Source of the DNA: Deltaproteobacteria bacterium
GTDB taxonomy: Bacteria > Desulfobacterota > Dissulfuribacteria > Dissulfuribacterales > QOAL01
DNA length: 49,551 nucleotides
NCBI GenBank assembly: GCA_027067775.1
Contig: JAMOVK010000048.1
Location: forward strand, 1-49,551
Reading direction: 5' to 3'
Within the stretch, counting starts at the first letter, position 1, and the number at the start of each line of letters is the position of its first letter. Positions 2,947 to 22,725 of this stretch are shown here, in pieces. The notes below the pieces were generated by a model that saw only the letters and a list, made by a program, of their open reading frames with translations, was not told where the DNA came from and did no database searches. The position numbers and the translations under genes were made by a program.

Positions 2947-5454
2947 ATGAAAAAGGTCATAAAAAAGCCTCTTAGTCGGATATTTCACTATTTTAGAAAG
3001 ATTCTTGATCTTAACAACAAGGTCCTTGAAGAAATTGGTAATGCCGAACGGGTCCTTGGGGGAAATTATGTGTTTGACAGGGCTTTTCTGGCTGAATTTG
3101 TCACAAAGGTTTGCGAGATAACAAGAGAGGTCATCTATAATTTTAATGCCCTTACCAACGGTCAGTACATGGTCCTATACGACCGGCTCGAGGCAATAAG
3201 ATTTGCTCTTGAAGACATTATCGCTGGGGGAGAAGGTCCGTATGGACATCGTCTAACCCTTTCGTATAAAGAGATCAATCGCGATCTTGATGAGATAGTC
3301 GGTGCAAAAAATGCCAATCTTGCAGATGTCTACAACAATTTTCAGGTGCGTATACCACAGGGGTTTGCAATAACGGTAAAGGCCTACCTGCTTTTTCTCG
3401 AGACAAACCAGATTGTTCCTCAGATAGAAAAGATATACAAGCAAGACAGAGATCCAACCCTTATAAAGGAGAGGGTAACCGAGATCTTCAAGAATGCATC
3501 TATTCCGAGCCAGCTTGCAATAGAAGTAAAAAAGGAGCTAGAGGCCCTGTTTGACGAGTTGGGAAGAGTCCCTTTGCTTGCTGTAAGGAGCAGTGCGGTA
3601 GGGGAAGATACGGAAAGAAGTTTTGCAGGTCAGTTTCATACAATATTGAATGTGCATCCAGAAGATCTTTTTGATGCCTATAAAAAGGTGATCATGGCCA
3701 GGTTTATGCCTGAAGTCATGGAATATCTTGGTCAAATCAGGGATCTTTATAGCAATCCCGTGGCAGTTGGTGTTCAGGAAATGATAGATGCCAGCATTGC
3801 TGGAGTCGCCTATACAAAGGATCCTTTAAACCATTACAAGGACTGTTTGGTTATAACGGCTATTGCTGGACTTGGTGAAAGACTTGTTGCAGGCCATCTA
3901 GATGGCGATCAGTACCTGGTCAGACGTTCTTTTCCCTTTTGTCTACAGTCGAGTATCATAACTCCAAAATCTCTAAATAAGAGGCTGCCTACAGGAGACA
4001 AGCCTCTTGATATGGGAGACCACAACCTACGAAGGGGATCTTCTCTTCTTAATATCAAAAGCCTTAAGGACATCTCAGAAGTGGCCATGCTGTGTGAAAA
4101 GGCCTTTGGTAGTCCCATGGACATTGAATGGGCCCTGGATAAAAAGGGCGAGTTGGTACTGCTTCAAAACAGGCGCCTTGGTATCCAGTCGGTTTCAGAG
4201 CCCCTTCATAAGGATCTAGAGAAGGTTGTTAAGCAGTTTCCTGTGATCATGAATGGAGTTGGTCACACAGCACAGCTTGGTGCGGCATCTGGACGGGTGG
4301 TTCATGTTGAGCCTGATGGTGATCTTGAAAACGTTCCAGTTGGAGCCATTGTGGTTTCAAGGTATGCCCATCCAAAACTTAGCCGGGTACTCAGAAAGGC
4401 AGGGGCAATAGTAACTGATATAGGCAGCTCTACAGGGCATCTTGCCACTATTGCAAGGGAATACAGGGTTCCGGCCATCTTTGGGACAGGAAATGCTACA
4501 ATGCTTTTAAAGGATGGCATGGAGGTGACTGTAGATGCTGACAACAGAAAGATCTATCAAGGAATAATAGAAGAATTGGTAGAGGTGGAAGCCAGGCAGG
4601 ACTGGGAATATATGGAAGAGCCTGAAATAAAGACCTTGCGGAAGGTTTTAAGTTATGTGGCCCCACTCTACCTGATAGATCCAACTTCTAAGGATTTTAA
4701 GGCTGAAAAGTGTAAGACCATTCACGATATAATACATTTTGCCCACATAAAGGCAGTGGACGCCCTGATCGAACAGTTCTCATCCACAAAATCTTATAAA
4801 GATGAAAAAACCCTAAGGCTCAAGGCTGATCTGCCCATAGAAATTGTTATAATTGATATCGGAGGTGGTGTAGATACACGGGAAAATGACAAAGAGGTCC
4901 AGATAGACCAGATCCGCAGCGTGCCCTTTAAGGCCATCTTGTCCGGACTGTTAAGACAGGATGCATGGGATAGGGAGCCTGTGCCGTTTGGGCTTGGTGA
5001 TCTATTTTCCAGTATGGTACGCCCTGTGAGTATGATTACGCATCCACCAGAGTTTGCAGGTCAAAATCTGGCCATCGTTGCAGAGGATTTCATGAACCTG
5101 AGCCTTCTTCTTGGGTATCACTTTAACGTTATCGATTCCTTTGTAAGTGATGAGCCTGATAACAACTACATCTACTTCCGCTTTGCAGGTGGTTTTGCAG
5201 AAGAGCAGAAACGTCGGAAAAGGGCGGAGTTGATAAGGTGGATACTAGAGACCCTTGGGTTTAAGACAGAGGTAAGAAAGGACATTGTCATTGGAAAACT
5301 CAAGGGGCTTGACCAGCAAAAGCTTGTTAAAATACTTGAACATCTGGGGTGGCTCATCGCCTTTACCAGACAGCTTGATGTAAGGATGGCAGACGAGCGG
5401 GCCGTAGAGCATTTTTACAACTGTTTTCTCGATCTTTGCGAAAAATCACTGTAG
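2947..5454 (+). CDS. PEP-synthase-like ATP-grasp/phosphohistidine protein P1 with novel C-terminal domain
   Basis: An 835-residue cytosolic protein related to the N-terminal half of PEP synthase and pyruvate phosphate dikinase. Visible order: a helical N-domain (about 1-110); a PPDK_N ATP-grasp domain (about 115-420) with the lysine loop VGAKNANLA, AVRSSAVGED (R214) and DIEWALDKKGELVLLQ; a swivelling phosphohistidine domain with H498 in STGHLATIARE; and a C-terminal domain (about 550-835) I do not recognise, with HDIIHFAHIKAV, IDIGGG (D637), a GYHFNVIDSF segment and FRFAGG. The PEP/pyruvate TIM barrel of true PEP synthase is missing, so 'pyruvate, water dikinase' would be a misannotation. ATP-driven histidine phosphorylation is likely from conserved residues; the final acceptor is unknown. 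The P2 gene starts 17 bases after its stop. No Shine-Dalgarno is obvious before the ATG. Confidence 0.85.
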   Translation: MKKVIKKPLSRIFHYFRKILDLNNKVLEEIGNAERVLGGNYVFDRAFLAEFVTKVCEITREVIYNFNALTNGQYMVLYDRLEAIRFALEDIIAGGEGPYGHRLTLSYKEINRDLDEIVGAKNANLADVYNNFQVRIPQGFAITVKAYLLFLETNQIVPQIEKIYKQDRDPTLIKERVTEIFKNASIPSQLAIEVKKELEALFDELGRVPLLAVRSSAVGEDTERSFAGQFHTILNVHPEDLFDAYKKVIMARFMPEVMEYLGQIRDLYSNPVAVGVQEMIDASIAGVAYTKDPLNHYKDCLVITAIAGLGERLVAGHLDGDQYLVRRSFPFCLQSSIITPKSLNKRLPTGDKPLDMGDHNLRRGSSLLNIKSLKDISEVAMLCEKAFGSPMDIEWALDKKGELVLLQNRRLGIQSVSEPLHKDLEKVVKQFPVIMNGVGHTAQLGAASGRVVHVEPDGDLENVPVGAIVVSRYAHPKLSRVLRKAGAIVTDIGSSTGHLATIAREYRVPAIFGTGNATMLLKDGMEVTVDADNRKIYQGIIEELVEVEARQDWEYMEEPEIKTLRKVLSYVAPLYLIDPTSKDFKAEKCKTIHDIIHFAHIKAVDALIEQFSSTKSYKDEKTLRLKADLPIEIVIIDIGGGVDTRENDKEVQIDQIRSVPFKAILSGLLRQDAWDREPVPFGLGDLFSSMVRPVSMITHPPEFAGQNLAIVAEDFMNLSLLLGYHFNVIDSFVSDEPDNNYIYFRFAGGFAEEQKRRKRAELIRWILETLGFKTEVRKDIVIGKLKGLDQQKLVKILEHLGWLIAFTRQLDVRMADERAVEHFYNCFLDLCEKSL

Positions 5455-5471
5455 CTAAAAGGCCCTTTGGC

Positions 5472-8117
5472 ATGTTTGATTGGGTAAAAAGACAGATAGA
5501 AAGGTTTCATGAAGTTCGGCATCAAAAGGCCAAAGAGCGTCTTGAGGAGCTCAAGTGGCGTTACCAGATTTTTCGCTCCCTTTTGTATGAAAATACCAAG
5601 GCCGTGGAGCTAATTACAGACATTGACCTGAAACTCAGGGAAAGTGATTTTTTTGGGCCGGACATTCACCACAAGATACACGAACTCATTGATATCACTG
5701 GAGAGCTGGTTGAAAAACTCAACCAGCTAGACTACGAAAGACATACCTCTTTATTCAACATACATAAGAAGCTCAGCAAAAGAATAAACGAGCTTCTCAA
5801 AAAGGTGCCTACCCATAAGGATATTCCCCTTTGCGTTACCCTTGATGAAGTGTTACCTCACTATGCCTCCTTTGCAGGTGGCAAGGCAGCCAGTCTTGCC
5901 CGGCTCAAGAGCCAAGATAAATTTAACGTGCCTGACGGATTTTCTATCTTGGTCAATGCCTGCAGGTACTTTCTAGATGAAAGCGGACTGTCGGTAAAGA
6001 TCTTAAAAAGGCTCCAGCCATTTTTGTTCCAGGATAAAGAGGTAACCAAGGAGCTTGAGGAAGAGATAAAACAGGAGATCATGTCTGCAGACATGCCCGG
6101 GTCTCTGGAAGAGGCCTTGAAGCACATGTCGGCAAGATTTTTTGATCAAGGCAAAGGGCTTGCCGTAAGAAGTAGCGCATTAAGTGAGGACGGACTTCAT
6201 CACTCTTTTGCTGGCCAGTTTACCTCTGTGCTCAATGTGGTCTCTTTTGAGGCCCTAAAGGTTGCAGTAAAGGAGGTAATATCAAGTAACTTTAACTCCA
6301 GGAGCCTGGCCTATAGAATTGGGGCTGGAATGAAAGCTCTTGACTTTAACATGGCAGTCCTTTGCATAGAAATGATAGATGCACAAAAGGCTGGTGTCAT
6401 ATTTTCCATGGATCCAAACGATCCCAAAGAAGAGACAATGCTCATTACAGCACTTTACGGCATGGGAGAACTTGTTGTCTCTGGCGCTTCAATGGCTGAC
6501 GTTTACAAACCTTACAGGGAGAATCTCAAGGATCTTTTTTCAGTTCCTCCGGTAGTTGCAAAAAAAAGCAAACGCCTTGTTCTTGATCCACATGGTGGTC
6601 TTAAGGAAGATGAGATACCGCCACAGCTGCAGAATGAGCCGGTTTTGTCCAATGATGAAGTCCGTAAGCTGGTTGATCTAGCTCTTGAACTCGAGCATAT
6701 GTTCAACGGACCCCAAGATATCGAGTGGGCTATAGACAGGAAAGGCACAGTTTGGCTTCTTCAGACAAGACCTCTCATTATGGAAGGGCACAAGACAAGG
6801 CCTGTTTTTCGTTTCGACAAGAGAAAGCCAATTTTTAAGGGAGCTCTTATTACATCTAGGGGGGTTGCTACCGGCAGGGTAAAAAAGATAAGAAAGAGAA
6901 AGGATCTTGATTCTGACTTTTCGGAGCCAACGATTCTGGTTCTGCACAGGAGTCTGGTGGATGCTGCCAAGGTTATAGGGAAGGTGAGGGGACTGCTTGT
7001 GGATTTTGGCAACCCGGCAGACCATCTTTCATGTGTTGCCAGAGAATATGGCCGCCCCATGCTTGTTGGGCTTGTAAATGCCATGGAGAATCTGGAGGAA
7101 GGGCAGTGGATAACTGTTGATGGCGAACATGGAAAGGTCTTTCCTGCCGAGCAAGATGAGATAAAAAAGGCTGTTGAAGAATTTGAAAAGGAGCAGGCAT
7201 CTGCAGATCAGAAAAAAAGGGTTTCTCAGGAAAAAGATGGTGTGCTGCAGCAGTTAAAGGAGCTTACCATAAAGTTGAATCTTACGGATGCCTATGGCCC
7301 TACCTTTTCCATAATGGAGTGCCGCTCCCTGCACGACATAGTCCGGTATGTGCATGAAAAGGCAGTTATTGCCTTTTTTGAGGCAGGAGATGAGCTCCTT
7401 GAAGAAACCTCTGGTGTAGTTTACAGACTGGAAAGCGATATCCCGTTTTTTCTACACATCATAGATGTAGGAGGGGGGCTTGGCCCCAGTCTGTCTAAAA
7501 AGCGGTCAGTAACGCCAGATGAGATTGTCTGTAAGCCTTTCAGGGCCTTGTGGCGTGGAATATCTACTCCGGGTCTGAGATGGGCCGGGCCACCGCCAGT
7601 GGTTGGAGATGTATCATCTGTTATAGGCAGGTGGATGTCAGATACTCGAAGCCAGCGTCCCATCGGTATGCCTAACTACCTCATCATTGCTAGAGACTAT
7701 CTTAATCTTAACGCTCGCATGGATTTCCATTTTACCATGGTGGATACGGTGTGCGGACTGGATACCAAAGAGAACTATGTCAAGTTCCGTTTTAAGGGTG
7801 GCGGTACAACCATGAAACAGCGTCACCGGCGGGCCCTTGCCATAGGCGAAATACTAGAACGCGCAGATTTTTTTACAGATGTAAAGGCAGATCTGGTCAA
7901 CGCCATTTTTGAATACGCCCCATCAGATATTATAGAAGAAAAACTGGTTATAGTTGGAAGGTTACTTGGTTTTACCAGATTAATAGACGCTGCCATGTAT
8001 AACGATCAGACTCCCTATCTCGTGGCTGACGCCTTTTATGAAGGAGACTATGAGCTGAAAAAACTTGTGGATTTTTTATCTAAGCAGCAGGCGCAACAAA
8101 GGGATAGAAGGGGATAA
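5472..8117 (+). CDS. PEP-synthase-like ATP-grasp/phosphohistidine protein P2, tandem paralogue
   Basis: An 881-residue paralogue of P1 with the same layout. It has a longer helical N-domain (1-115), then ATP-grasp motifs FAGGKAASLARL, AVRSSALSED (R233), QDIEWAIDRKGTVWLLQ and the phosphohistidine in GNPADHLSCVARE (H518). The C-terminal domain has HDIVRYVHEKAV, IDVGGGLG, an NARMDFHFTMVD segment and FRFKGGG. It is the most diverged of the three copies, notably around the phosphohistidine (ADH instead of TGH or SHM) and in the C-domain (RLLGFTRLIDAAM). The ATG at 5472 is preferred over an in-frame TTG at 5436 inside P1 because AAAAGG lies nine bases upstream and the homologous start aligns. It is co-transcribed with P1 and ends three bases from a convergent phosphatase gene. 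Confidence 0.85.
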   Translation: MFDWVKRQIERFHEVRHQKAKERLEELKWRYQIFRSLLYENTKAVELITDIDLKLRESDFFGPDIHHKIHELIDITGELVEKLNQLDYERHTSLFNIHKKLSKRINELLKKVPTHKDIPLCVTLDEVLPHYASFAGGKAASLARLKSQDKFNVPDGFSILVNACRYFLDESGLSVKILKRLQPFLFQDKEVTKELEEEIKQEIMSADMPGSLEEALKHMSARFFDQGKGLAVRSSALSEDGLHHSFAGQFTSVLNVVSFEALKVAVKEVISSNFNSRSLAYRIGAGMKALDFNMAVLCIEMIDAQKAGVIFSMDPNDPKEETMLITALYGMGELVVSGASMADVYKPYRENLKDLFSVPPVVAKKSKRLVLDPHGGLKEDEIPPQLQNEPVLSNDEVRKLVDLALELEHMFNGPQDIEWAIDRKGTVWLLQTRPLIMEGHKTRPVFRFDKRKPIFKGALITSRGVATGRVKKIRKRKDLDSDFSEPTILVLHRSLVDAAKVIGKVRGLLVDFGNPADHLSCVAREYGRPMLVGLVNAMENLEEGQWITVDGEHGKVFPAEQDEIKKAVEEFEKEQASADQKKRVSQEKDGVLQQLKELTIKLNLTDAYGPTFSIMECRSLHDIVRYVHEKAVIAFFEAGDELLEETSGVVYRLESDIPFFLHIIDVGGGLGPSLSKKRSVTPDEIVCKPFRALWRGISTPGLRWAGPPPVVGDVSSVIGRWMSDTRSQRPIGMPNYLIIARDYLNLNARMDFHFTMVDTVCGLDTKENYVKFRFKGGGTTMKQRHRRALAIGEILERADFFTDVKADLVNAIFEYAPSDIIEEKLVIVGRLLGFTRLIDAAMYNDQTPYLVADAFYEGDYELKKLVDFLSKQQAQQRDRRG

Positions 8118-8120
8118 AGG

Positions 8121-8777
8121 CTAGGCGTGATAAAAACGCATCTCTGGCAGTACCACGGCAGTCAAGACATTTCCGTAAACTGCACCTGTATCTATGCCAA
8201 TCTTGTTTTTTGTTACAAGAGGCATTTCAAAGGCAGTATGACCAAAGACCACGGTTTTCCCTATGTCCAGATCTGCTTCTAAAAATATGTCCCTGACTTC
8301 GCAAAATTCCATAGCCGTGTGTTTTTCAAGGGGAAGGCCAGGCATAATACCTGCGTGCACAAAGAGATAGTCTTGTTCAGTGTAGTAGAGTTTTAGATTT
8401 TTAAGAAAGTCCACATGTTCTTTGGGCATGAAAGAGAGTTCGTGCAGGCTGCTAAGGTTGTTTTCCCCGTAACTCTTGACAAAGGCCTCAATATGCTGCT
8501 GCCGAAGATATGGTATCAGTATGTCGTCTGGAGATTTCACATACTCCAACAACAGGTTTTCATGGTTCCCAAGGAGGAAAATTACATTTTTGTTTTCCTT
8601 CTTTAGGTCTATAAGAAGAGATATAACATCTTTTGAACTTGGCCCCCTTCCTATATAGTCCCCAAGAAATACAACCCTGTCGTTGGCACGTATCGAAAGG
8701 TATTTTAGAAGCTTTTCAAGCTTTTTGATGCAGCCATGTATATCCCCAATGGCTATCAGTCTTCCATTAGAGCCCAT
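8121..8777 (-). CDS. PPP-family serine/threonine-type metallophosphatase
   Basis: A 218-residue calcineurin-like phosphoesterase resembling PrpA/ApaH-type bacterial phosphatases. Metal and phosphate motifs in order: AIGDIHGC (residues 11-18), FLGDYIGRGP, LLGNHE, HAGIMPG and FGHTAFEMP, then the terminal DTGAVYG block. The second aspartate of the usual GDxxDRG motif is replaced by glycine (GDYIGRG). The first aspartate and the arginine remain, so activity is still plausible. The ATG has GGAG seven bases upstream. It faces the P2 gene with only three bases between the stop codons. Opposing ATP-dependent phosphotransfer by P1/P2 is an attractive but unproven role; dinucleotide polyphosphate hydrolysis is the main alternative. 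Confidence 0.85.
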   Translation of the reverse strand: MGSNGRLIAIGDIHGCIKKLEKLLKYLSIRANDRVVFLGDYIGRGPSSKDVISLLIDLKKENKNVIFLLGNHENLLLEYVKSPDDILIPYLRQQHIEAFVKSYGENNLSSLHELSFMPKEHVDFLKNLKLYYTEQDYLFVHAGIMPGLPLEKHTAMEFCEVRDIFLEADLDIGKTVVFGHTAFEMPLVTKNKIGIDTGAVYGNVLTAVVLPEMRFYHA

Positions 8778-8900
8778 GAAATGCTCCAGATTCTTTAATC
8801 ATATAGAATAGAGGATACACCCGAATCAACCCTTATAGCAAGTTTCCATATGAAATTTTTGTAGCCTGTTCATATTTGATATTTTGGCCCCTGGGACCAT

Positions 8901-8915
8901 GTTTCAAAATGAAAC
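8901..8915. promoter_or_regulatory. Perfect palindrome GTTTCA-AAA-TGAAAC, operator candidate
   Basis: A perfect inverted repeat of six-base arms with a three-base centre, in the region upstream of the small membrane protein/TauE/Usp operon. The left half extends to TGTTTCAA, the same octamer that occurs three times upstream of the second TauE unit (17465-17532). Confidence 0.45.
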
Positions 8916-8986
8916 GATATCTTGCTGAAATTTAAGAAAAAATTCATAAACTTTTCCGATTTGAAAGTTAAAAAATTCTCAGAACC

Positions 8987-9015
8987 TTGACACGCCTATA
9001 ACTTGGGTCTAAAAA
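8987..9015 (+). promoter_or_regulatory. Candidate promoter of the first TauE operon
   Basis: A perfect TTGACA (8987-8992), a 17-base spacer and TAAAAA (9010-9015, four of six). It lies about 50 bases upstream of the first start codon and about 70 bases downstream of the GTTTCA palindrome. A sigma-54 reading of the same bases was considered and judged weaker. Confidence 0.4.
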
Positions 9016-9065
9016 GTGATTGCTTGTGAATAAGGATTCATATTGTGAAGGGAGGGTGTTTCATT

Positions 9066-9305
9066 ATGAAAAAGCAAAAGTCTAAAGGCCCCCTGTTCAT
9101 CAAGACCATGGTTTTTGGGGCCATGTCAGGTGCTCTCTACTACTTGGTGTTTTCCAATGTTGATTGGGTCACCAAGACGTATACCATGGGAGGATGGCAC
9201 ACTGTCTATCCTGTGGGAACAGCCTTAGTTTTTTCTTTTATCCACGGTGCCTTTGCAAGTAACCTTCTGGCCCTTTTGGGCATAGAGGCCAAAGGCAGCC
9301 ATTAA
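9066..9305 (+). CDS. Small two-helix membrane protein of the TauE operon
   Basis: A 79-residue protein with two hydrophobic segments (about 15-35 and 50-72) and a positively charged N-terminus (MKKQKSKG), which predicts an N-in topology. The ATG at 9066 is chosen over a GTG at 9045 because GGAGGG lies about nine bases before it. It ends with EAKGSH; short glycine/histidine-containing tails also close two membrane proteins of the second TauE operon. It lies 21 bases before the TauE/SafE permease gene, with which it is almost certainly co-transcribed. I do not recognise a named family; a small accessory subunit of the permease is the natural guess. Confidence 0.7.
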   Translation: MKKQKSKGPLFIKTMVFGAMSGALYYLVFSNVDWVTKTYTMGGWHTVYPVGTALVFSFIHGAFASNLLALLGIEAKGSH

Positions 9306-9326
9306 GTCCTAAAGGAGGGGAGGAAG

Positions 9327-10646
9327 ATGCGACGCATTCTCATATTTTTGGTAATTATTGGTGCTGTTTTTCTTTTTGCCCAAGATGTTCTTGCAGGTGG
9401 TGGCGGGCCACCCAAAAACATGCTGAAGGGTTTTTTTGAGAAGGTTAACCCTGATGGTACTGCAGTCTTTTTAGTTGATACTACCGGGGAAAGGAAGATC
9501 CTGGTACTTCCAAAGGACATGAAGCCGGAAGATGTGCCCATGGATAGAAAGGTCCTGGTAAGTCTGGTGACCGAAGGGCATGGGCACAAGATCACCAACA
9601 AGATCAAGAGTGTGTCCATAATGTTTATAGATCTGCCAACTTCAAAGGTGATAGCGCTTCTTGTTGTTGGTCTTATCGGTGGTCTACTGAGCGGATTTAT
9701 TGGCTCAGGTGGTGCATTTGTCTTGACACCCGCCATGATGTCCCTTGGCGCACCTGGTGCAGTGGCAGTTGCCAGCAACATGTGTCACAAGTTTCCAAAG
9801 GCCATGGTTGGTGCCTACAAGAGATGGAAATATGGACAGGCAGACATAAAACTTGGTGTCTTTATGGCTGTAACCGCCATTGTTGGTGTCCAGATTGGAA
9901 TCCAGATCCAGAAGTACATCCTTGATCACTGGGGAAATGCCGGTTCCAATCTCTATGTGAGCCTCATGTTTGTCATCGTGTTGGTGGTAGTTGGTGCCTA
10001 TGTGTTCTATGATGCATACAAGCTGTCAAAGGGCGGAAAAGAGGCAGAGACAACCAAGCTTGCCAAAAAGCTTCAGAGCATAAACCTTCCTCCAATGATC
10101 CACTTTAAAACGGCAGGGATCAGGATCTCCGCATGGTTTACCATTCCTGTTGGAGTGGCGACAGGAATGCTTGCTGCCACTATTGCCGTTGGAGGGTTTA
10201 TTGGGGTTCCCGGACTTATCTACGTTATTGGTGCATCTGCTGTTGTTGCCAGTGCCACAGAGTTGGTAATTGCATTTTGTATGGGTATGTGGGGTTCCAT
10301 ACAGTGGGGTTTGAGTGGTCTTATAGATATCAGGCTTACCCTCCTTATCCTTGCTGCCTCTCTTATTGGAGTGCAGCTTGGTGCCCTTGGTACAACCTAC
10401 GTTAAAGACTATATGATAAAGATAGTCATGGGTGCTGTGATGTTGATAGTTGCAGTTAGCAGGGGAGCAAAGATCCCGGGTTATTTGGCAGATCTTGGTC
10501 TTCGTCCACCCCTTGATCCATCTACAACATCCTTTTTGAACTCGGTAAGTTTCTGGGCCTTGGTGGCTGCCCTTGGTACGGCAGGCATAATAATATCTGC
10601 TGCCATGATAAGGGGTATGCTCCAGGCACGGGCTGAAGGTTCTTAA
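9327..10646 (+). CDS. TauE/SafE-family anion permease 1 with extracytoplasmic N-domain
   Basis: A 439-residue inner-membrane permease of the TauE/SafE family (sulfite, sulfoacetate and related organosulfur anions are known substrates). A signal-like N-terminus (about 1-23, ending VLA) precedes an unusual soluble segment (about 24-100, GGGGPP..., probably extracytoplasmic). The usual two repeats follow, with the diagnostic LSGFIGSGGAFVLTPAMM (about 120-137) and ATIAVGGFIGVPGLIYV (about 285-300). About nine transmembrane segments are visible. Typical family members are near 250-300 residues, so the front domain and a C-terminal extension make it long. AGGAGGGGAGG precedes the ATG. A tandem Usp gene follows 17 bases after the stop. 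Confidence 0.88.
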   Translation: MRRILIFLVIIGAVFLFAQDVLAGGGGPPKNMLKGFFEKVNPDGTAVFLVDTTGERKILVLPKDMKPEDVPMDRKVLVSLVTEGHGHKITNKIKSVSIMFIDLPTSKVIALLVVGLIGGLLSGFIGSGGAFVLTPAMMSLGAPGAVAVASNMCHKFPKAMVGAYKRWKYGQADIKLGVFMAVTAIVGVQIGIQIQKYILDHWGNAGSNLYVSLMFVIVLVVVGAYVFYDAYKLSKGGKEAETTKLAKKLQSINLPPMIHFKTAGIRISAWFTIPVGVATGMLAATIAVGGFIGVPGLIYVIGASAVVASATELVIAFCMGMWGSIQWGLSGLIDIRLTLLILAASLIGVQLGALGTTYVKDYMIKIVMGAVMLIVAVSRGAKIPGYLADLGLRPPLDPSTTSFLNSVSFWALVAALGTAGIIISAAMIRGMLQARAEGS

Positions 10647-13612: not shown

Positions 13613-13623
13613 AGGGGGTTTTG

Positions 13624-15459
13624 ATGATGGGAAATTTGTTTTTCCCCGGTGTTGGATCCAAAACTAGGTCCTTCTTTTGGATGTGTTTTTATCTGTCATT
13701 TCTCTTGTTTTTTTCTGTCAACTGGATTTCCGGCCTGGCCAGGGCCAAGGAACACCGGGCTGCCAATGCCCATCATGGACAGGAACAGGATAGGTTTGAA
13801 GGCGAAATCCTTGCCATTTCCGGCAAGATAGTAAATCCTCACAACACTGGAGTCGATGATGTTGTGTTGAAAGTGCTCCTAAATGGCAAGGAGTTTAAGC
13901 CAAAGGCCAAGGAAGGCCAGCATGCCCATGGCGAAGGCGGATTAAAGACAGAAGCTGATGGCACGTTCCAAACGGTGCTGGAATTGCCAAAAGGTAGCAT
14001 AAAAGGCTCTACTATAGAAATAGTGGCCTATAAGCCTAGTTATGAAAAGGGCAAGGTACTACTTGATAACACCAAGATTGCCTTTGATGGCAAGCAGTAT
14101 CTGGCCCATGTGGAACTCTCCATAAAGCGTACCCAGGGACCTGCCTTCTGGATAGCAACGGTTATCTTTGTCCTTGCCTACATCCTTATCTCCTTTGAAC
14201 TCCTTCACAGGACCCTTGCTGCCATGCTCGGAGCAGCCACCATGCTTGTGATAAGCTATACCATTGGCACGATAAATCCCGAGTACCATATACTGTCTTA
14301 TGAAACTGCTATCCATGCCATTGATATGAACGTGATATTCCTGCTCATGGGCATGATGATAATAGTTGGCATTCTAAAGCACACTGGGGTGTTCCAGTGG
14401 TCAGCCTATCAGTGCTACAAAATGGCAAAGGGAAATGTGATAGTGCTTTCCGTCATCCTCATGAGTTTTACTGCAGTGGCCTCGGCCTTTCTTGACAACG
14501 TTACCACAATGTTGCTCTTGACCCCGGTCAGTATAGAAATAGCGCTATCCTTGGGTATCAATCCTCTAGCCCTGCTCATTCCAGAGGTCTTGGCCTCCAA
14601 CATAGGCGGTACGGCAACCCTTATCGGTGATCCACCTAACATAATGATAGGCTCTTATGCAGGGTTAACCTTTATGGATTTTGTTATAGACCTGACTCCT
14701 GTATGCCTTATCTCCATGGTGGTGCTTTTTGTCTATTCCAAATTTGCCTATGGCAGGGAGTATGGTAAGGCCAAGATTACAGACATAGATGCGTTTATAG
14801 AAAAGCTTCGCCAGGAATATCAGATTACCGATTCCCAACTGCTTACGGTTGGCGGTATCATTATGGGAATTGTTGTAGCTTTGTTTTTGACCCACGGCTA
14901 CTGGCACATGGAGGTGTCTATTGCAGCCCTGTTTGGAGCATCACTTCTTTTTACCTACGGGCTCTTGACCAAAAAGATCGATCTTCTAGAACTCATTGAA
15001 AAGGATATCGAATGGACAACCCTGCTCTTTTTCATGTTCCTGTTTATCCTGGTAGGAGCTGTAGAGGAAACAGGCCTTTTGGATCTTATTGCCGACTGGG
15101 TTCTGCATCTATCCCATGGTAGCCTAGTGACATCTATATGTCTGATTCTCTGGGTCTCTGCCATAATGAGTGCCTTTGTAGATAACATTCCATTCACCGC
15201 CACCATGCTTCCCATTGTAGGGTATCTGACACAGGTTATTCCAGGGGCAGATTCTGGAGTCCTTTGGTGGGCACTGGCCTTTGGTGCATGCTTTGGCGGT
15301 AACGGGACGATGATTGGTGCGAGTGCCAACGTGGTGACTCTTGGTATTGCAGAATCAGCTGGGCATCCCATGAAATTTTTCGGTTTTATGAAAGTGGCTT
15401 TTCCTTATATGATTATAAGTGTGGCCATAGCCAATGTGTGGCTCTTGATGTTTTATTAA
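13624..15459 (+). CDS. ArsB/NhaD-superfamily ion permease with extracytoplasmic N-domain
   Basis: An approximately 611-residue permease of the ion-transporter (ArsB/NhaD/SLC13) superfamily. A signal-like segment (about 17-42) is followed by a soluble domain (about 43-180) resembling a carboxypeptidase-regulatory/beta-sandwich module (ILAISGKIVNPHNTGVDDV...), which is rich in histidine at its edges. Then come about eleven transmembrane helices. Signatures are SAFLDNVTTMLLLTPVSIEI and NIGGTATLIGDPPNIMIGS in the first half, and AFVDNIPFTATMLPIVGYL with GACFGGNGTMIGASANVV in the second. Substrate is undecided: Na+/H+ exchange, arsenite or an oxyanion are all possible; the neighbourhood favours a sulfur oxyanion. 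The start is at ATG 13624 or 13627, following GGGGG; a TTG at 13621 is also in frame. Confidence 0.83.
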   Translation: MMGNLFFPGVGSKTRSFFWMCFYLSFLLFFSVNWISGLARAKEHRAANAHHGQEQDRFEGEILAISGKIVNPHNTGVDDVVLKVLLNGKEFKPKAKEGQHAHGEGGLKTEADGTFQTVLELPKGSIKGSTIEIVAYKPSYEKGKVLLDNTKIAFDGKQYLAHVELSIKRTQGPAFWIATVIFVLAYILISFELLHRTLAAMLGAATMLVISYTIGTINPEYHILSYETAIHAIDMNVIFLLMGMMIIVGILKHTGVFQWSAYQCYKMAKGNVIVLSVILMSFTAVASAFLDNVTTMLLLTPVSIEIALSLGINPLALLIPEVLASNIGGTATLIGDPPNIMIGSYAGLTFMDFVIDLTPVCLISMVVLFVYSKFAYGREYGKAKITDIDAFIEKLRQEYQITDSQLLTVGGIIMGIVVALFLTHGYWHMEVSIAALFGASLLFTYGLLTKKIDLLELIEKDIEWTTLLFFMFLFILVGAVEETGLLDLIADWVLHLSHGSLVTSICLILWVSAIMSAFVDNIPFTATMLPIVGYLTQVIPGADSGVLWWALAFGACFGGNGTMIGASANVVTLGIAESAGHPMKFFGFMKVAFPYMIISVAIANVWLLMFY

Positions 15460-15486: not shown

Positions 15487-16452
15487 ATGACAAAAAAAGT
15501 AGAACCTCTTAGCAAATTTCTATTGCCAATAGATGGAAAGGGCACTTTTAAATCTGCCTGCATGCTGGCAGGGACGCTGGCCAAGATCCTTGGAGATCGG
15601 GTATCAGAGATTACCATACTTCATGTGATGGCAGGCAGATATCTAAGTACACACATGACCAACATTGATATCCGTGCTGGCCTTGTCCTTGAGAGCGAGA
15701 CGTTTAAGAGGCTGAGGGAGGAATTTATAAATAAGCAGATAGCTCCCTTGATGAATGAGGCAAAGGATATTGTAGCACGGTTTAATCCTTCTGCTCCCAT
15801 TGATATGGAGATAGTGGATGGCAAACCAGCCAACAAGATCTTGGAGTTTGTAAAAAAATACAACTATTCAACAATAGTAATGCAGAGAAGGTGCATGGAC
15901 CCTGTCAAAGGCTCCTTTATTGGCAGCGTGACTTCGGGCATACTTTATGGACGAGGTTCCTGTTCCGTATACATCCCTGGAACTGATTTTCCCGAGGATG
16001 GACAGTTTGAGATTAAAAGACTGCTCATACTTGTTGATGGATCCAAGGGGTCGATGGCTGCGGTCAAGGAGGCTGGAATCCTTATGACATATGCCAAGGA
16101 ATCCAAGGCGTGGTTGCTTAACGTGATGGACGTTGCTGATATAGCCGAGGCCGCAGATTCCGATTCTTGGCCTAGTCCTCTTGAGGAGGCAGAAGGTATT
16201 CTAAAAGAGGCTCGCAAAGAGCTGGAACAGTTAAAAGTGACTCCCGACAGGATTGTTGAAAAGGTTGAAGCGGGTGATCCTGCTGAAGTGATATCCTCTT
16301 ACTCTGAAGAAGCAGAGGCAGACATCATATACCTTGGCAGGACAATAAGAAGCGCTATCTCTGATATACTTGTAGGAAGTGTGGGACGGGCTGTTCTTGG
16401 CAGATGCGCAAAAAAGACCATAGCCGTAGTGTCCCCGGAAGAAGAGGAGTAG
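15487..16452 (+). CDS. Tandem-domain Usp-like protein with degenerate nucleotide motifs
   Basis: A 321-residue protein with two Usp-type domains (about 1-165 and 170-318). The first contains RRCMDPVKGSFIGSVTSGIL and the second GRTIRSAISDILVGSVGRAV. In both, the GS at the end of the Usp nucleotide motif is kept, but the leading glycines are altered, so ATP binding is uncertain. GAGGGG precedes the ATG, and the gene begins 27 bases after the ArsB-type permease, consistent with one transcription unit. A regulatory subunit for the permeases upstream is inferred. Confidence 0.85.
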   Translation: MTKKVEPLSKFLLPIDGKGTFKSACMLAGTLAKILGDRVSEITILHVMAGRYLSTHMTNIDIRAGLVLESETFKRLREEFINKQIAPLMNEAKDIVARFNPSAPIDMEIVDGKPANKILEFVKKYNYSTIVMQRRCMDPVKGSFIGSVTSGILYGRGSCSVYIPGTDFPEDGQFEIKRLLILVDGSKGSMAAVKEAGILMTYAKESKAWLLNVMDVADIAEAADSDSWPSPLEEAEGILKEARKELEQLKVTPDRIVEKVEAGDPAEVISSYSEEAEADIIYLGRTIRSAISDILVGSVGRAVLGRCAKKTIAVVSPEEEE

Positions 16453-16489
16453 GCTAGGGGTTTTTAAGGAAGAAGGAGGATCTCTGTTT

Positions 16490-17281
16490 ATGTATTTATC
16501 AACCGTAAGGACTGTTATTGTTACAGGCATTGTGATTTTTGCATGTGCGTCAGGAGTGTTTCAACAGGCTGAAGCCGCCTCCAAGACCTTTAAGAACTCT
16601 GTTGGCATAGAGTTTGTGTTGATACCCGCGGGAACTTTCATGATGGGGGCAGCAAGGCATTTCGAAAACGCCGATATAGACGAACTTCCCAGACACAAGG
16701 TTACCATATCCAAGCCCTTTTATATTGGAAAATATGAAGTTACACAAGAACAGTGGGTTGCTGTTATGGGCTATAATCCAAGCCATTTTAAGGGTCGCAG
16801 GCGTCCTGTAGAGAATGTTTCATGGAACGATGTTCAAAAATTTATCAAAAAGCTTAATGAGATGGAAAAGACAGACAAATACAGACTTCCAACAGAGGCT
16901 GAATGGGAATACTCTGCCCGTGCAGGCGAACCCGGTTCATACTGCTTTGGAGATATGGTTTCTGATCTTCCCTTGTATGCATGGTTTTATCAAAACTCGA
17001 ACGCCCAGACCCATGAAGTTGGACTCTTGAAGCCTAACATGTGGGGCCTTTATGACATGCATGGAAACGTATGGGAGTGGTGCAAGGACTGGTATTCCTT
17101 TGATTATTATTCTAGATCTCCAGAGGTTGACCCTCAAGGCCCTGAAAACGGGGTGTTGAAGGTGGAAAGAGGAGGGGGATGGGATGCATTGCCAGATGCA
17201 TGCAGGTCTGCGTATCGTCACGGATTTTTCCCCTTCAAGGGTAACTCTGCCTTGGGTTTCCGGCTTGTAAAAATTCCCTGA
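16490..17281 (+). CDS. Secreted SUMF/FGE-like domain protein
   Basis: A 263-residue protein with a cleavable-looking signal peptide (1-30, ending QAEAA) followed by a complete SUMF1/formylglycine-generating-enzyme-sulfatase fold. Family blocks in order: FVLIPAGTFMMGA, DELPRHKVTISKPFYIGKYE, TQEQWVAVMGYNPS, PVENVSWNDVQ, YRLPTEAEWEYSARAG, NVWEWCKDWY, RGGGWDALPDACRSAYRHG and ALGFRLV. The paired active-site cysteines of true FGE are not seen in the C-terminal block, so it is probably a binding or structural SUMF protein and not a sulfatase activator. It should be periplasmic or lipidic-surface located. AGGAGG precedes the ATG. A strong terminator follows. Confidence 0.88.
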   Translation: MYLSTVRTVIVTGIVIFACASGVFQQAEAASKTFKNSVGIEFVLIPAGTFMMGAARHFENADIDELPRHKVTISKPFYIGKYEVTQEQWVAVMGYNPSHFKGRRRPVENVSWNDVQKFIKKLNEMEKTDKYRLPTEAEWEYSARAGEPGSYCFGDMVSDLPLYAWFYQNSNAQTHEVGLLKPNMWGLYDMHGNVWEWCKDWYSFDYYSRSPEVDPQGPENGVLKVERGGGWDALPDACRSAYRHGFFPFKGNSALGFRLVKIP

Positions 17282-17315
17282 TCACCAGGACAGACTACAT
17301 ATTCTCCGGCAACTA

Positions 17316-17345
17316 GGCCCTGGTATTCATGCCAGGGCTTTTTTG
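17316..17345 (+). terminator. Rho-independent terminator after the SUMF gene
   Basis: A seven-bp GC-rich stem, GCCCTGG (17317-17323) with CCAGGGC (17332-17338), an eight-base loop and a run of six T. It ends the permease/Usp/SUMF transcription unit. Confidence 0.9.
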
Positions 17346-17578
17346 ATTCTGGATGTCTGTGGATAGTGCGCCTTTCTTTATGAAGCCATTTTGTCCAGTA
17401 CATATTGCCCTGTAAAAAAGCAGTTTTTTAAGGCACTTTTATCCATTTGTTCACAAGAGAAACAGTTGTTTCAATCTTGATTTGAATGTTGTTTCAACCA
17501 GTTACATGGGAGCTGTTTACTTTTGAAACAACAATAGTTCTTGTTTGCGCAAGCTTATGGCACCGAAATGAGGCGGGA
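17346..17578. other. Regulatory region upstream of the second TauE unit
   Basis: No convincing gene is present. The notable content is three copies of GTTGTTTCAA (see separate entry). No promoter hexamers stand out; a TGGCAC at 17558 resembles half of a sigma-54 site but lacks the -12 element. Confidence 0.5.
17465..17532. repeat. Three GTTGTTTCAA boxes, two direct and one inverted
   Basis: Identical decamers occur at 17465-17474 and 17488-17497 (direct, 23-base period) and as the reverse complement TTGAAACAAC at 17523-17532. This spacing and symmetry are typical of a multi-site operator or activator array. The core octamer TGTTTCAA also forms half of the palindrome upstream of the first TauE operon at 8901-8915. 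Confidence 0.55.
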
Positions 17579-17722
17579 ATGGGCAAGGATGCTGGGATTA
17601 CAGTATGTGAAGATTTTGGCATCTTGCATGCAGAGTCGATGGTGAAGGCCGAGCTTGTTGATGTTTTTGTTAGTGGAATTTTGGAGAAAGGTAAAAGAAG
17701 ACGCAGGATGGTTTGGGCTTAA
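17579..17722 (+). CDS. Possible short ORF coupled to the Usp-like gene
   Basis: A 47-codon frame (MGKDAGITVCEDFGILHAES... ending KRRRRMVWA) whose TAA overlaps the ATG of the next gene (TAATG). The frame is open further upstream to an ATG at 17486, but the internal ATG follows a purine-rich AGGCGGGA more closely. No family is recognised and the ribosome binding site is too close to the ATG to be ideal. It is recorded because the overlap suggests translational coupling. Confidence 0.25.
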   Translation: MGKDAGITVCEDFGILHAESMVKAELVDVFVSGILEKGKRRRRMVWA

Positions 17723-18243
17723 TGGGAAAGAGAGTGGCCCTACTGATGGACGGACATGATTCTGATCTATATGCAAGTTTTTGCGCGGTAAAACTGGCAA
17801 AGCGGATGGATGCAGAGCTGTTTTCAGTCTTGCTGATATTAAAGTCTGATGTATCTGATCTCCAGGCAGTCAGATCCAACGGGCCATGGAGCAACTTTTC
17901 TCCTTCAGCCTTATGGCAACTTGTATCCGGACTGTGCAGCTTGGAACAGGTTCAGGTTTCCTATCATATGTTGAGAAAGGTTTCAGATGGCGAACTTGTG
18001 GATTTTTTGGTGGACTACAAGATTTCCTGCCTGATAGCAGGAACCCTAAACGATGATGATTTTGATAAAAAAAGGGATTGGTTGTCCAAAATAGTCAAAA
18101 AGGTGAGCTTTCATCCTGAATGGTATTTATCGAATCTAACGGTTTTCTTGGCCAGACCATGGGACGATGATTTCTTTCAGAAAGTTTTGCAACAGATAAA
18201 TGCAGATTGCAGTCTGTATTCAATAGAGATTGTGTCTGCCTGA
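17722..18243 (+). CDS. Divergent Usp-like protein upstream of TauE permease 2
   Basis: A 173-residue cytosolic protein whose strand-helix pattern (KRVALLMDGHDSDLYASFCA at the start, then LFSVLLIL) resembles a Usp domain. The C-terminal nucleotide motif is missing, and the region corresponding to it (LIAGTLNDDDFDKKRDWLSKI) is acidic. Start at ATG 17722 is chosen for its TAATG overlap with the short upstream frame; TTG 17713 is also in frame. It lies 49 bases before the TauE/SafE gene, so it repeats the Usp-plus-permease pattern of this region. Function is unknown; a permease regulator is inferred. Confidence 0.6.
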   Translation: MGKRVALLMDGHDSDLYASFCAVKLAKRMDAELFSVLLILKSDVSDLQAVRSNGPWSNFSPSALWQLVSGLCSLEQVQVSYHMLRKVSDGELVDFLVDYKISCLIAGTLNDDDFDKKRDWLSKIVKKVSFHPEWYLSNLTVFLARPWDDDFFQKVLQQINADCSLYSIEIVSA

Positions 18244-18292
18244 GTAGGCAGCAGGATCTGTTTTTAATCTTAAAACCGTAGGAGGGTTTTCT

Positions 18293-19255
18293 ATGTATAT
18301 TTATTTGCCAATAGCACTTACCAGCGTGACCCTTTGGCTAGTGGTTGGTCTTGGGTTGCTGGTCGGGCTTCTGTCGGGCCTGTTTGGTGTTGGCGGAGGA
18401 TTTCTAATGACGCCGCTACTGATGATGATTGGTATTCCGCCTACAGTTGCTGCGGCTACAGACGCAAACCAGATTGTAGCAGCATCGGCATCAGGTACCC
18501 TGGCCCATTGGAGGCTGGGCAATGTGGATTTCAAGATGGGTCTTCTGCTGCTTGTTGGTGGTTTTACGGGCGGTGCACTGGGTGTCTATGTGATAAAGGT
18601 CCTTAGGGCTACAGGTGGTGCTGATTTTCTTATAAAGATAACCTATGTGATAATGCTTGGTGTGGTGGGTACCTTTATGTTTTTTGAGAGCCTTCATGCC
18701 CTTAAAAAACAAAAGGCAGTGGCCAGAATGAGCGAAGAAGAGCGTATCGAAGCAGAAAGAAGGGCAAGGGAAAAGGCAGCGGTCAAGGCAAAGAAAAAGA
18801 GCATCTTGGCATCTCTTCCCATGCAGATACACTTTGAAAAGTCAGGAGTAACCCATTCTGCCATCCTTCCGGTGGGGCTTGGAATATTTGTTGGAGTGCT
18901 TGCTGCCATCATGGGCGTGGGAGGAGGTTTTCTCATGGTTCCGGTCATGATCTATCTGCTTCGCATGCCCATGCATGTAGTGGTGGGAACAAGCCTGTTT
19001 CAGATCATGTTCACGTGTGTGGAAGTCACCTTTCTCCAGGCCTACCAGAACCATACGGTAGATATCATCCTTGCTATTCTTCTTCTTGTTGGCTCCACCA
19101 TTGGAGCACAGATAGGAACCAAACTGGGCAAGAAGCTCCATGGAGATCAGTTGAAAATCCTGCTAGCCATGATAGTGCTCGGAGTGACCGTAAAAATGAT
19201 TCTCGGGCTAGTGCTTGAGCCATCCCTGTTGCTGGCACATGGAGGAGGGCATTAG
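18293..19255 (+). CDS. TauE/SafE-family anion permease 2
   Basis: A 320-residue inner-membrane permease with the two pseudo-repeats of the family: LLSGLFGVGGGFLMTPLLMM (about 24-43) and LAAIMGVGGGFLMVPVMIYL (about 205-224), with about eight transmembrane helices. A charged cytosolic loop (about 140-180, rich in Arg/Glu/Lys) lies between the repeats. Known family members export or import sulfite and sulfonates. It ends with AHGGGH, a glycine/histidine tail. GGAGG precedes the ATG; the TIGR02186-type gene starts two bases after the stop, so the two are tightly coupled. Confidence 0.92.
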   Translation: MYIYLPIALTSVTLWLVVGLGLLVGLLSGLFGVGGGFLMTPLLMMIGIPPTVAAATDANQIVAASASGTLAHWRLGNVDFKMGLLLLVGGFTGGALGVYVIKVLRATGGADFLIKITYVIMLGVVGTFMFFESLHALKKQKAVARMSEEERIEAERRAREKAAVKAKKKSILASLPMQIHFEKSGVTHSAILPVGLGIFVGVLAAIMGVGGGFLMVPVMIYLLRMPMHVVVGTSLFQIMFTCVEVTFLQAYQNHTVDIILAILLLVGSTIGAQIGTKLGKKLHGDQLKILLAMIVLGVTVKMILGLVLEPSLLLAHGGGH

Positions 19256-19257
19256 AG

Positions 19258-20031
19258 ATGAACAGGATCCCTTTAGTACTGTTACAGGCTGTAGTCGCGT
19301 TAGTTATCTTTGTCTGTCTTGTGCCAACTCCTGCATCTGCATTGACGGTAGATGTTACGCCAGGCAAGATCCCTATCACGATCGGCTATCACGGCACCAA
19401 GTTGGTCGTTAAAGGCAGCGGCCTTAACACCAAGGATGTGATAGTTCAGATACACTCACAGCTAGGAGAAGAACATCTAAAGTACAAGGGCAAGGCCGGC
19501 GGCATTTTCTGGATGAAGCTTGGCAACATAGTGTTTGAAAATGTACCCAAGGTGTATCTTGTTTATTCCACAAGGGATATTCATGATATGCTTCCTCCAA
19601 AGACTTGTAAAGAACTTGGCATAGGATACGATGCCCTTAGGAGCAAGGCCAAGATAAAGACCGATATGAAGGACTTTGACCGAGATACATGGATTGTGGA
19701 ATTTTTAAAGTTTATGGAAGAAGAGCATCTTTACCATGAAGAAGATGGAGTGGTGAAAGTTGATAAGGAGAATCACACATTTTCTGTTGAGATAGATTGG
19801 CCCTTTGAGGCACCTCCTGGAGAATATTTTGTTGAAGCCTTTGCTGTAAAGGATGGCAAGGTCGTGGATAAGGCACAGGCCAGAATAAGGGTGGAACGGG
19901 TAGGCCTTATCAAGCAGCTTTCCCACATGGCTTTTGAAAGACCAGCCCTTTATGGCATTATTGCCATCATTGTGGCAATAGTGGCAGGTTTTGGTGTGGG
20001 CATGGTGTTTAAAGGTGGAGGTGGTCATTAA
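19258..20031 (+). CDS. TIGR02186-type (Alph_Pro_TM) secreted/membrane protein partner of TauE
   Basis: A 257-residue protein with a signal sequence (about 1-29, ending ASALT), a long extracytoplasmic beta-rich domain (about 30-225) and one C-terminal membrane helix (about 230-252) with a GGGGH tail. This layout and the blocks DVTPGKIPITIGYHGTKLVV, DVIVQIHS and APPGEYFVEAFAVKDGK match the family annotated as TIGR02186/PF09608, which often travels with TauE/SafE genes. It probably forms an extracytoplasmic module of the permease; biochemical function is unknown to me. A strong terminator follows. Confidence 0.72.
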   Translation: MNRIPLVLLQAVVALVIFVCLVPTPASALTVDVTPGKIPITIGYHGTKLVVKGSGLNTKDVIVQIHSQLGEEHLKYKGKAGGIFWMKLGNIVFENVPKVYLVYSTRDIHDMLPPKTCKELGIGYDALRSKAKIKTDMKDFDRDTWIVEFLKFMEEEHLYHEEDGVVKVDKENHTFSVEIDWPFEAPPGEYFVEAFAVKDGKVVDKAQARIRVERVGLIKQLSHMAFERPALYGIIAIIVAIVAGFGVGMVFKGGGGH

Positions 20032-20076
20032 AGCTGATGTTGAACTAAAAACAAGTACCCTCCAGTTCTTGTTTTG

Positions 20077-20116
20077 CCCCTGCCTATTATTAGATTATAA
20101 GGCAGGGGTTTTTTTT
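20077..20116 (+). terminator. Rho-independent terminator after the TIGR02186-type gene
   Basis: A nine-bp stem, CCCCTGCCT (20077-20085) with AGGCAGGGG (20100-20108), followed by eight T. P3 begins 20 bases further on, so it may have its own promoter or depend on read-through. Confidence 0.92.
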
Positions 20117-20136
20117 GTTTTGACCAGGAGTGAAAA

Positions 20137-22725
20137 TTGACACGCTTTATTCAGCAACTAGCAGATAGAATAAGGGGAGCGATTTCAAAATCATCGGCGC
20201 AAACCAGCGTTGATATCAGAGAGAAGTTCGAGCGTTTTAAAAAGGTGCTCCAGTGTAATCAGACAGCTCTTGAGATAATTGCCGATATGGGTGAAAAGCT
20301 CAGTGGCGACTATCTCTTTGACAGACATTACATAGAAACAACCTTTGATGAGTTATCCGAGACGGTCTTAAAGTGTGTGCACAGGCTTAACACCCTGTGT
20401 GATAACAGATACAAGGATTTATATGAGGTCTATGAGCACATATACGACAGGCTGCTCCAGGTGCTTAAAGGGCGAGATGACCGTCATGGGCCGCCTGTCA
20501 TTCTCCTGCATGAAATTACAAAGGGTCAGTTTCCCATAATCGGGGGAAAGGCCCTTCATCTTGCAAGGATAATCACGGACCTTGAGCTTCCGGTTCCCCC
20601 AGGCTTTGTCATAACCACAAAGGCCTATCATGACATTATTTTTTTTAACGGTCTTGAAGACAGCCTTGAAAGGCTGGAAAGGCTTTTAGGCTCTCATTCT
20701 GCCACAGATGATGAAATTGAGGAGCTTAGAAAGAAGCTCAAACAGTCCATAATGCAACTTCAGCCCACACGACATCTTCTGGAGGAGATCGAGCTTGCAA
20801 TCTCTCACCTGGCAGATTCGGGTCACGAGGTAAGCCGTTTTGCTGTAAGAAGCAGCGCTCGGGAAGAGGATATGGACTTTTCCTTTGCTGGTCAGTTTGA
20901 GACAGTCTTGAATGTCCAAGGCTCTTCCATGGAGATCTTTAACGCATACAGGACTGTTTTGGCCAGCCTTTTCAGTAGACATGTCATTGAGTACAGACGT
21001 ACAGTGCTGGAGGGAGAAGGTCAGATGTCAATTGCCGCCATATGCCAGGTGATGGTTGATGCAAAGAGTAGCGGCGTCCTTTATACGACCGATCCCCTTA
21101 ACGCAGCCTCAGACAATATGGTGATTGTTGGAAACTGGGGACAGGGAGAGGCTGTGGTCGATGGTAAAATGCCTACAGATTCCTTTATCTTATCAAAAAA
21201 AGATGGGCTGAAAATTGTCGACAGAAAAATAGCCAGGAAGACAGAGGCCTTGTATTTGGCAGCTCAGGGTGGACTTGAAAAGAGAAATTTACCTCATGAA
21301 TTACAAAACAAGGCCTGTCTTACAGATGAGCAGATACTTGAGCTTGGCAGAATGGGAATCAAGCTTGAAAACTATTTTAAGCATCCGCAAGACGCAGAGT
21401 GGGCCCTGGATCCAAACGATAGACTGTTGATCCTTCAATCCCGGGAACTTCTTATTAAAAAAGAAAGCGATATTGATCGATCCCTTTTGAATCTTGAAGA
21501 TAAATATGAGGTGATCTCCAGTGGAGAAGGGCTTACCGCCCAGCAGGGAATAGGATATGGCCCTGTAAAGATAATCAGGAACATCCGGGAAGTCGATGAC
21601 GTTCCTGAAGGAGCCGTACTGGTAAGCCCGCGTGACAGCTCTGTTTTGGTCAGGGTTATGAAAAAGGTTTCGGCAATCGTCACCGAGGTAGGTAGTCCGG
21701 TAAGCCATATGGCCACAATCTGTAGGGAGTTGTGCGTGCCGTGCCTTGTAAACGTCACAGGTATAACATCCAAGGTGGAAGACGGTATGGAAATAACAGT
21801 GGATGCCGAGGACAGAAAGATATACAAGGGAAAAGTGAAGGAGCTTCTGGTATACAGAAGTTGTCAGTCTATGAATGTTTTTGCCTCGTCGGATTTCAGG
21901 CTGCTTAGAAGACTGCTAAACGAGATCGCTCGTCTCAATCTGATAGATCCCTTGATTGAAGAATTTCGGATGGACAGGTGCGAGACCTATCATGATGTCC
22001 TTAGGTTTATACATGAAAAGGCTGTGCAGGAATTGATAGAGCTTGGAAAAGACGAAAAGAGACTACTGAAGGGCCATCTTACCAAGAGGCTTGAACTTCC
22101 CATCCCTACAGGTATCCTGTGCCTGGACCTTGGTGGAGGCATATCCAAAGAGGCTCCTGAAGATCACTGCGAGTTTGAACACGTCGTCTCAATACCTTTT
22201 AGGGCCCTTTTAAAAGGGATGCTTACCCCTGGCGTATGGCATACCGAAATGATGGACGTTAGTCTCAGAGACATGGTAACAAGCATGATAAACGCCCCTG
22301 CAGATGCCCTTGATGGACAATATTCTGGTCATAACATTGCCATAATTACAAGAGAATACATGAACCTGAGCCTGCGTTTTGGCTACCATTTTAACATTGT
22401 GGATGCGTACTGCAGTGATTATCCAAGAGACAATCACATATATTTCAGATTCCTTGGAGGGGCTACAGACATAACAAAGAGATCCAGGAGGGCCAGATTG
22501 ATTGCTGAAATACTCAAGGCATCCGATATGAATGTGAAAACCAAGGGAGACGTTGTTACTGCAAGGATGGGTAATATGCCTCGTCAGGAAATGGAAAGGA
22601 TCTTGGAAATACTTGGAAGGCTGATAGGCTTTACTCGGCAGCTGGATGTCCACATGGAAAGTGACTCTTCAATTCAACTGTACTTGGAAGCCTTCTTGTC
22701 AGGAAATTACAGTGTGGCACGCTAG
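20137..22725 (+). CDS. PEP-synthase-like ATP-grasp/phosphohistidine protein P3
   Basis: An 862-residue third paralogue of P1 and P2, closer to P1. Layout: helical N-domain (1-125, with FKKVLQCNQTALEIIADMG, homologous in P2); ATP-grasp domain with PIIGGKALHLARI, AVRSSAREED (R238) and QDAEWALDPNDRLLILQ; phosphohistidine H524 in GSPVSHMATICRE; unrecognised C-terminal domain with YHDVLRFIHEKAV, LDLGGG, SIPFRALLKGML, RFGYHFNIVDAYC and FRFLGG. The PEP/pyruvate TIM barrel is absent. TTG start at 20137 is supported by AGGAG seven bases upstream. It lies downstream of the second TauE unit and upstream of a receiver-only regulator. ATP-dependent phosphotransfer is likely; its acceptor is unknown. Confidence 0.85.
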   Translation: MTRFIQQLADRIRGAISKSSAQTSVDIREKFERFKKVLQCNQTALEIIADMGEKLSGDYLFDRHYIETTFDELSETVLKCVHRLNTLCDNRYKDLYEVYEHIYDRLLQVLKGRDDRHGPPVILLHEITKGQFPIIGGKALHLARIITDLELPVPPGFVITTKAYHDIIFFNGLEDSLERLERLLGSHSATDDEIEELRKKLKQSIMQLQPTRHLLEEIELAISHLADSGHEVSRFAVRSSAREEDMDFSFAGQFETVLNVQGSSMEIFNAYRTVLASLFSRHVIEYRRTVLEGEGQMSIAAICQVMVDAKSSGVLYTTDPLNAASDNMVIVGNWGQGEAVVDGKMPTDSFILSKKDGLKIVDRKIARKTEALYLAAQGGLEKRNLPHELQNKACLTDEQILELGRMGIKLENYFKHPQDAEWALDPNDRLLILQSRELLIKKESDIDRSLLNLEDKYEVISSGEGLTAQQGIGYGPVKIIRNIREVDDVPEGAVLVSPRDSSVLVRVMKKVSAIVTEVGSPVSHMATICRELCVPCLVNVTGITSKVEDGMEITVDAEDRKIYKGKVKELLVYRSCQSMNVFASSDFRLLRRLLNEIARLNLIDPLIEEFRMDRCETYHDVLRFIHEKAVQELIELGKDEKRLLKGHLTKRLELPIPTGILCLDLGGGISKEAPEDHCEFEHVVSIPFRALLKGMLTPGVWHTEMMDVSLRDMVTSMINAPADALDGQYSGHNIAIITREYMNLSLRFGYHFNIVDAYCSDYPRDNHIYFRFLGGATDITKRSRRARLIAEILKASDMNVKTKGDVVTARMGNMPRQEMERILEILGRLIGFTRQLDVHMESDSSIQLYLEAFLSGNYSVAR

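Follow-up and report, generated by a model that had tools for sequence, protein, structure and literature searches.

PEP synthase, PPDK, rifampin phosphotransferase and the phenol/hydroxyphenylethanone kinases belong to the ATP-grasp/swivelling-phosphohistidine superfamily, in which ATP phosphorylates a histidine of the swivel domain, which then serves an acceptor site. The window analysed here, a 49,551-nucleotide stretch of DNA from a Deltaproteobacteria bacterium, carries three genes (P1, P2 and P3) whose products keep these catalytic modules and share a C-terminal domain (the C-domain). Together with a fourth full-length member in the same genome (P4, on contig C32, 30% identical to P3), they are best explained as a new subfamily of this superfamily. 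That the family belongs to the superfamily is clear, and mutant phenotypes of one likely member have already been published; the literature searched, with most subscription journals outside it, gave no biochemistry on any family member and no description of the C-domain, of the gene module or of its link to dsrA.

Nitrate is used against oil-field souring, and the control of sulfur-anion uptake in sulfate-reducing and related bacteria is, to our knowledge, poorly understood. The published phenotypes come from the Desulfovibrio nitrate cluster, where 100 mM nitrate makes no difference to the growth of transposon mutants of DVU0246, 0247, 0250 and 0251; these insertions hit the permease gene, its neighbour 0250, the receiver gene and the PEP-synthase-like gene 0246 (PMC4001038). 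Mutants of the phosphatase gene DVU0245 are still inhibited by nitrate (pooled fitness -6.04), whereas mutants of its G20 homologue Dde_0605 have a positive nitrate fitness (+2.08); the authors suggested that a leaky thiosulfate transporter admits nitrate (PMC4001038). The family described here offers a testable explanation for this nitrate resistance. It is multi-copy and nearly limited to dsrA genomes, it carries an undescribed domain, and it is tied to signalling and permease genes.

Architecture and conservation of the family

P1, P2 and P3 each begin with a helical front domain (~115 residues), which is followed by the PPDK_N ATP-grasp domain, the PEP-utilizers mobile domain and, at the end, the C-domain (~290 residues); in P1, the front domain spans residues ~1-115, the ATP-grasp 116-415, the swivel histidine domain ~440-535 and the C-domain ~545-835. 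The P3 gene starts with a TTG codon preceded by AGGAG. PPDK_N (PF01326, E 1e-60 to 1e-76) and PEP-utilizers (PF00391, covering the mobile domain with its catalytic histidine) are the only Pfam matches above cut-offs in the three proteins, and PEP-utilizers_C gave no match. NCBIfam PEP_synth alignments to P1-P3 end around position 470 of 784, which shows that the part with the TIM barrel is absent; the secondary structure of the predicted model likewise contains no barrel in the C-terminal part. The NCBIfam full-length RPH model scores at most 232 bits on P1-P3, against a curated cut-off of 999. The first-pass annotation, made from the sequence alone, had already described three such genes lacking the PEP/pyruvate TIM barrel: the open reading frames are indeed present and intact, alignment bears out the phosphohistidines H498, H518 and H524, and the C-domain blocks that it had picked out (HD..H, D.GGG, P-F-A, HF..D and FRF.GG) align across all three proteins.

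It had also called the C-domain new, and searches of Pfam, NCBIfam and PDB and with Foldseek and VIA-align matched it to no PEP/pyruvate-binding or other characterised domain. None of 84 diverse C-domains had a credible Pfam match, NCBIfam gave none by sequence, the best hit of a sequence profile against PDB had an E of 0.39, and no viral match was seen at E 0.001. The AlphaFold model (pLDDT 84.5) predicts an alpha/beta domain in which consecutive strands resemble an antiparallel sheet. With this model, Foldseek found no clear PDB fold (best E 0.04) and the best VIA-align scores (Z 6.0, to red chlorophyll catabolite reductase and coproporphyrinogen oxidase) fall within the background range, results that do not prove the fold to be new. 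The ATP-grasp and swivel domains align to PEPS/RPH with Z 38 and Z 13-18, respectively.

The conservation of the active site, first noted in the three window copies, extends to 154 relatives: the catalytic residues K138, R238, E421, Q434, R436 and H524 are kept in 149-154 of them, the catalytic histidine itself in 150, and D419 of the D-x-E motif in 146. Judging from these residues, ATP-driven phosphorylation by P1-P3 is likely. The C-domain is conserved more strictly still, H619, D620, H626, P687, H751, N766, G774, G775, R785 and G827 being invariant (154/154). Some copies have nevertheless lost the catalytic residues and kept the C-domain: in four loci (L122, L124, L125 and L126) the lysine, glutamate, glutamine and histidine are gone (K->A, E->T, H->R), and each of these loci also holds an intact copy with kinase and receiver genes, which suggests a pseudoenzyme-enzyme pair. 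The copy in L141 carries K->G and R->A and retains the histidine, and a 394-residue protein in L140 (8308-9492, minus strand) consists of the front domain and the C-domain without ATP-grasp or swivel. Since the dead copies and the L140 protein keep the C-domain, its role appears not always to need phosphotransfer. The L140 protein adjoins a dual-specificity phosphatase (DSP) gene, and a receiver lies nearby. Long open reading frames (up to 1450 aa) were considered as fusions, and the three tested showed just the two known Pfam domains.

Gene neighbourhood and genomic distribution

Table 1. Features of the window, with positions counted from its first nucleotide.
Feature	Position	Strand	Remarks
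P1, PEP-synthase-like phosphotransferase	2947..5454	+	835 aa; phosphohistidine H498
P2, P1 family	5472..8117	+	881 aa; phosphohistidine H518; 17 bp downstream of P1
Calcineurin-like (PPP-type) phosphatase	8121..8777	-	directly after P2
Second TauE/SafE permease	9327..10646	+	N-terminal extension; local neighbour
ArsB-type permease	13621..15459		long N-terminal extension before the membrane domain
FGE-sulfatase (formylglycine-generating-like) domain protein	16490..17281		likely signal peptide; inside the permease island
176-aa protein	17713..18243	+	upstream of TauE; homologues in 27/80 loci
TauE/SafE permease (TauE320)	18293..19255	+	recurring partner
Alph_Pro_TM (PF09608) protein	19258..20031	+	recurring partner upstream of family members
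Terminator-like hairpin and T-run	20077..20117	+	located by eye in the gap from Alph_Pro_TM to P3
P3, P1/P2 family	20137..22725	+	862 aa; phosphohistidine H524; C-domain ~570-862
Single-domain CheY-like response regulator	22848..23231	+	after P3; open reading frame listed from 22752, likely start 22848
Hsp70-related gene (HSP70 + DUF3731)	23378..26194		after the P3-receiver pair
Chemotaxis cluster	35232..44659	-	judged by translations alone

The surroundings of P3 follow a recurring order. Across 80 P3-like loci, a sigma-54 regulator, a Usp-like protein, TauE/SafE and Alph_Pro_TM precede the family member, which is followed by a single receiver, a histidine kinase and often two further members, P1- and P2-like; the L084 protein at the position of the 176-aa protein matches Usp. 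No histidine kinase lies beside P3 in the window, and the hairpin in front of P3 could mean that P3 and its receiver are attenuated or transcribed apart from the genes upstream. When gene density within 3 kb of family members is compared with that further out in the same loci, Alph_Pro_TM is 4.4x denser, receivers 2.8x, histidine kinases 2.5x and TauE 2.3x. The pairing with Alph_Pro_TM is especially close: this gene occurs in 51 of 297 genomes, 50 of which carry the family (p=2e-25), and 42 of its 59 copies lie directly upstream of a family member. Receivers beside many family members carry the DD..D..T..K residues.

The first-pass annotation had tied the family to permeases and Usp proteins in general, a link that recurs for TauE/SafE and fails for the rest: Usp genes are not enriched in the 3 kb test, and genes for YeiH and SLC13/ArsB are either missing near family members or less dense there than further out, so most of that list is local to the window. 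The PPP phosphatase it had pointed to does recur, since a calcineurin-like phosphatase gene adjoins family members in 9 of 95 loci, none being seen at a greater distance in these loci. PPP and dual-specificity phosphatase genes were seen only within 3 kb of family members in the scored loci, and most members have no recognised phosphatase neighbour. The receiver beside P3, the usual histidine kinase and the Alph_Pro_TM pairing had been missed, as had the mutant phenotypes published for the syntenic Desulfovibrio cluster.

Other genes of the window and of the genome deserve mention. A second Hsp70-like open reading frame, related to the one after the P3-receiver pair, lies near the pair of P4 and its DSP gene elsewhere in the genome, on a different contig (L139, 14581-16404). 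The N-terminal extensions of the ArsB-type permease and of the second TauE/SafE permease are long, precede the membrane domain and are possibly extra-membrane. The chemotaxis cluster appears to encode a methyl-accepting protein, CheW, CheA with a receiver, CheR, CheB and CheY.

The family is widespread, yet limited in the kind of genome that carries it, a feature that the first-pass annotation had not seen. In a phylum sample of 297 genomes and 198 genera, it occurs in 107 genomes and 65 genera, the highest number of copies scored in one genome being seven. dsrA is above cut-off in 143 of the 297 genomes and in 102 of the 107 that carry the family (p=1e-38), and the five family-positive genomes without dsrA are 62-80% complete. 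Many Nitrospirota also carry the family (>500 contigs), and 24 of 25 further family-positive genomes, mostly Nitrospirota, have dsrA. The family is thus almost confined to genomes with dissimilatory sulfite reductase, a striking near-subset relation, the link being statistical and sharing phylogeny.

Proposed function and its alternatives

We give about even chances to the reading that the family is an ATP-driven phosphotransferase under two-component control that switches a sulfur-oxyanion permease module. A phosphoryl group from ATP would be loaded onto the swivel histidine (H498, H518 or H524) and handed to an acceptor recognised by the C-domain. A sensor kinase and a single-domain receiver would turn the enzyme on, and the linked TauE/SafE sulfur-oxyanion permease system would depend on its action. 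In some subfamilies, the protein phosphatase encoded next to it (PPP or dual-specificity) probably counteracts the enzyme; the presence of such a gene beside some family members suggests that the acceptor is a protein. A more specific version, in which a receiver-controlled enzyme on a PEP-synthase chassis phosphorylates a protein of the permease module via its C-domain and is reset by a cognate phosphatase, is proposed tentatively.

Alternatively, the C-domain might bind an imported sulfur or organic anion, which the enzyme would phosphorylate for trapping or activation, in the way of rifampin phosphotransferase and the phenol kinases with their substrates. Relatives of known function whose acceptor domain is not one for PEP do act on small molecules (PMC12167813), the invariant histidines, aspartate, asparagine and arginine of the C-domain suit an anionic ligand, and transporter genes adjoin. 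We consider such a small-molecule dikinase rather unlikely, because the genes for a receiver, a histidine kinase and a protein phosphatase nearby are more in keeping with a regulatory role, and because up to seven copies per genome and dead copies that keep the C-domain would be odd for a pathway enzyme. It is improbable that the family acts as an unconventional histidine kinase, with a sensory C-domain and a swivel phosphohistidine that passes its phosphate to the adjacent receiver: the receivers beside many members do carry the DD..D..T..K residues, but these receivers have a donor already in the canonical HisKA/HATPase kinase that is usually encoded close by. Equally doubtful is a family of ligand or nucleotide sensors in which function resides mainly in the C-domain and phosphotransfer is subsidiary; the stricter conservation of the C-domain, the five loci with catalytically altered copies and the L140 protein speak for it, but ~97% of members, P1-P4 among them, retain the catalytic residues. 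Divergent PEP synthase/PPDK paralogues that make PEP, as the PPDK_N and PEP-utilizers domains might suggest, can be dismissed given the missing TIM barrel and the ordinary PEP synthase that the genome encodes on contig C150.

Comparison with known systems

The proposed switch of a permease module by a phosphotransferase finds a parallel in Desulfovibrio. P4, whose gene adjoins a DSP gene, belongs to a clade of 12 members (tree support 1.0) with the order TauE, PtxB-like lipoprotein, sensor kinase, receiver, family member and DSP, seen for instance in L119 (TauE, PF12974, histidine kinase, receiver, family member, DSP); a separate P2 clade had a tree support of 0.0 and is not claimed. The Desulfovibrio nitrate cluster (DVU0251-0245 / Dde_0597-0605) has the same gene order, with a PPDK_N + mobile-domain protein at the place of the family member, and the C-domain does not appear in its annotation table (PMC4001038, Table 3). 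DVU0246 is likely a family member, as judged by synteny, annotation and length: its 2235 bp encode 744 aa, the length of the family member in L104, which lacks the front domain. Because permease, receiver and enzyme mutants share one phenotype, the receiver and the enzyme would act in the pathway of the permease, barring polar effects, with which the transposon data would also be compatible. The nitrate-cluster order is shared by the P4-type subfamily and not by P1-P3, which fall on different branches and have Alph_Pro_TM or PPP as partners, and the Desulfovibrio result may carry over to them.

Among characterised enzymes, RPH, HpeHI, CreHI and PpsAB, the latter three being two-component aromatic dikinases, carry both catalytic modules as well, together with an acceptor domain that is not one for PEP, and no signalling or permease link is described for these enzymes in that study (PMC12167813). 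In the family described here, the putative acceptor domain comes after the swivel domain, at the C-terminal end, and is unmatched to that of RPH. PpsA and PPDK share the ATP-grasp domain, the swivelling phosphohistidine domain and the catalytic residues with the family, which differs from them in that (i), the TIM barrel is replaced by a domain of ~290 residues that has no clear fold match; (ii), a helical front domain is added; and (iii), the genes lie in a signalling and permease neighbourhood.
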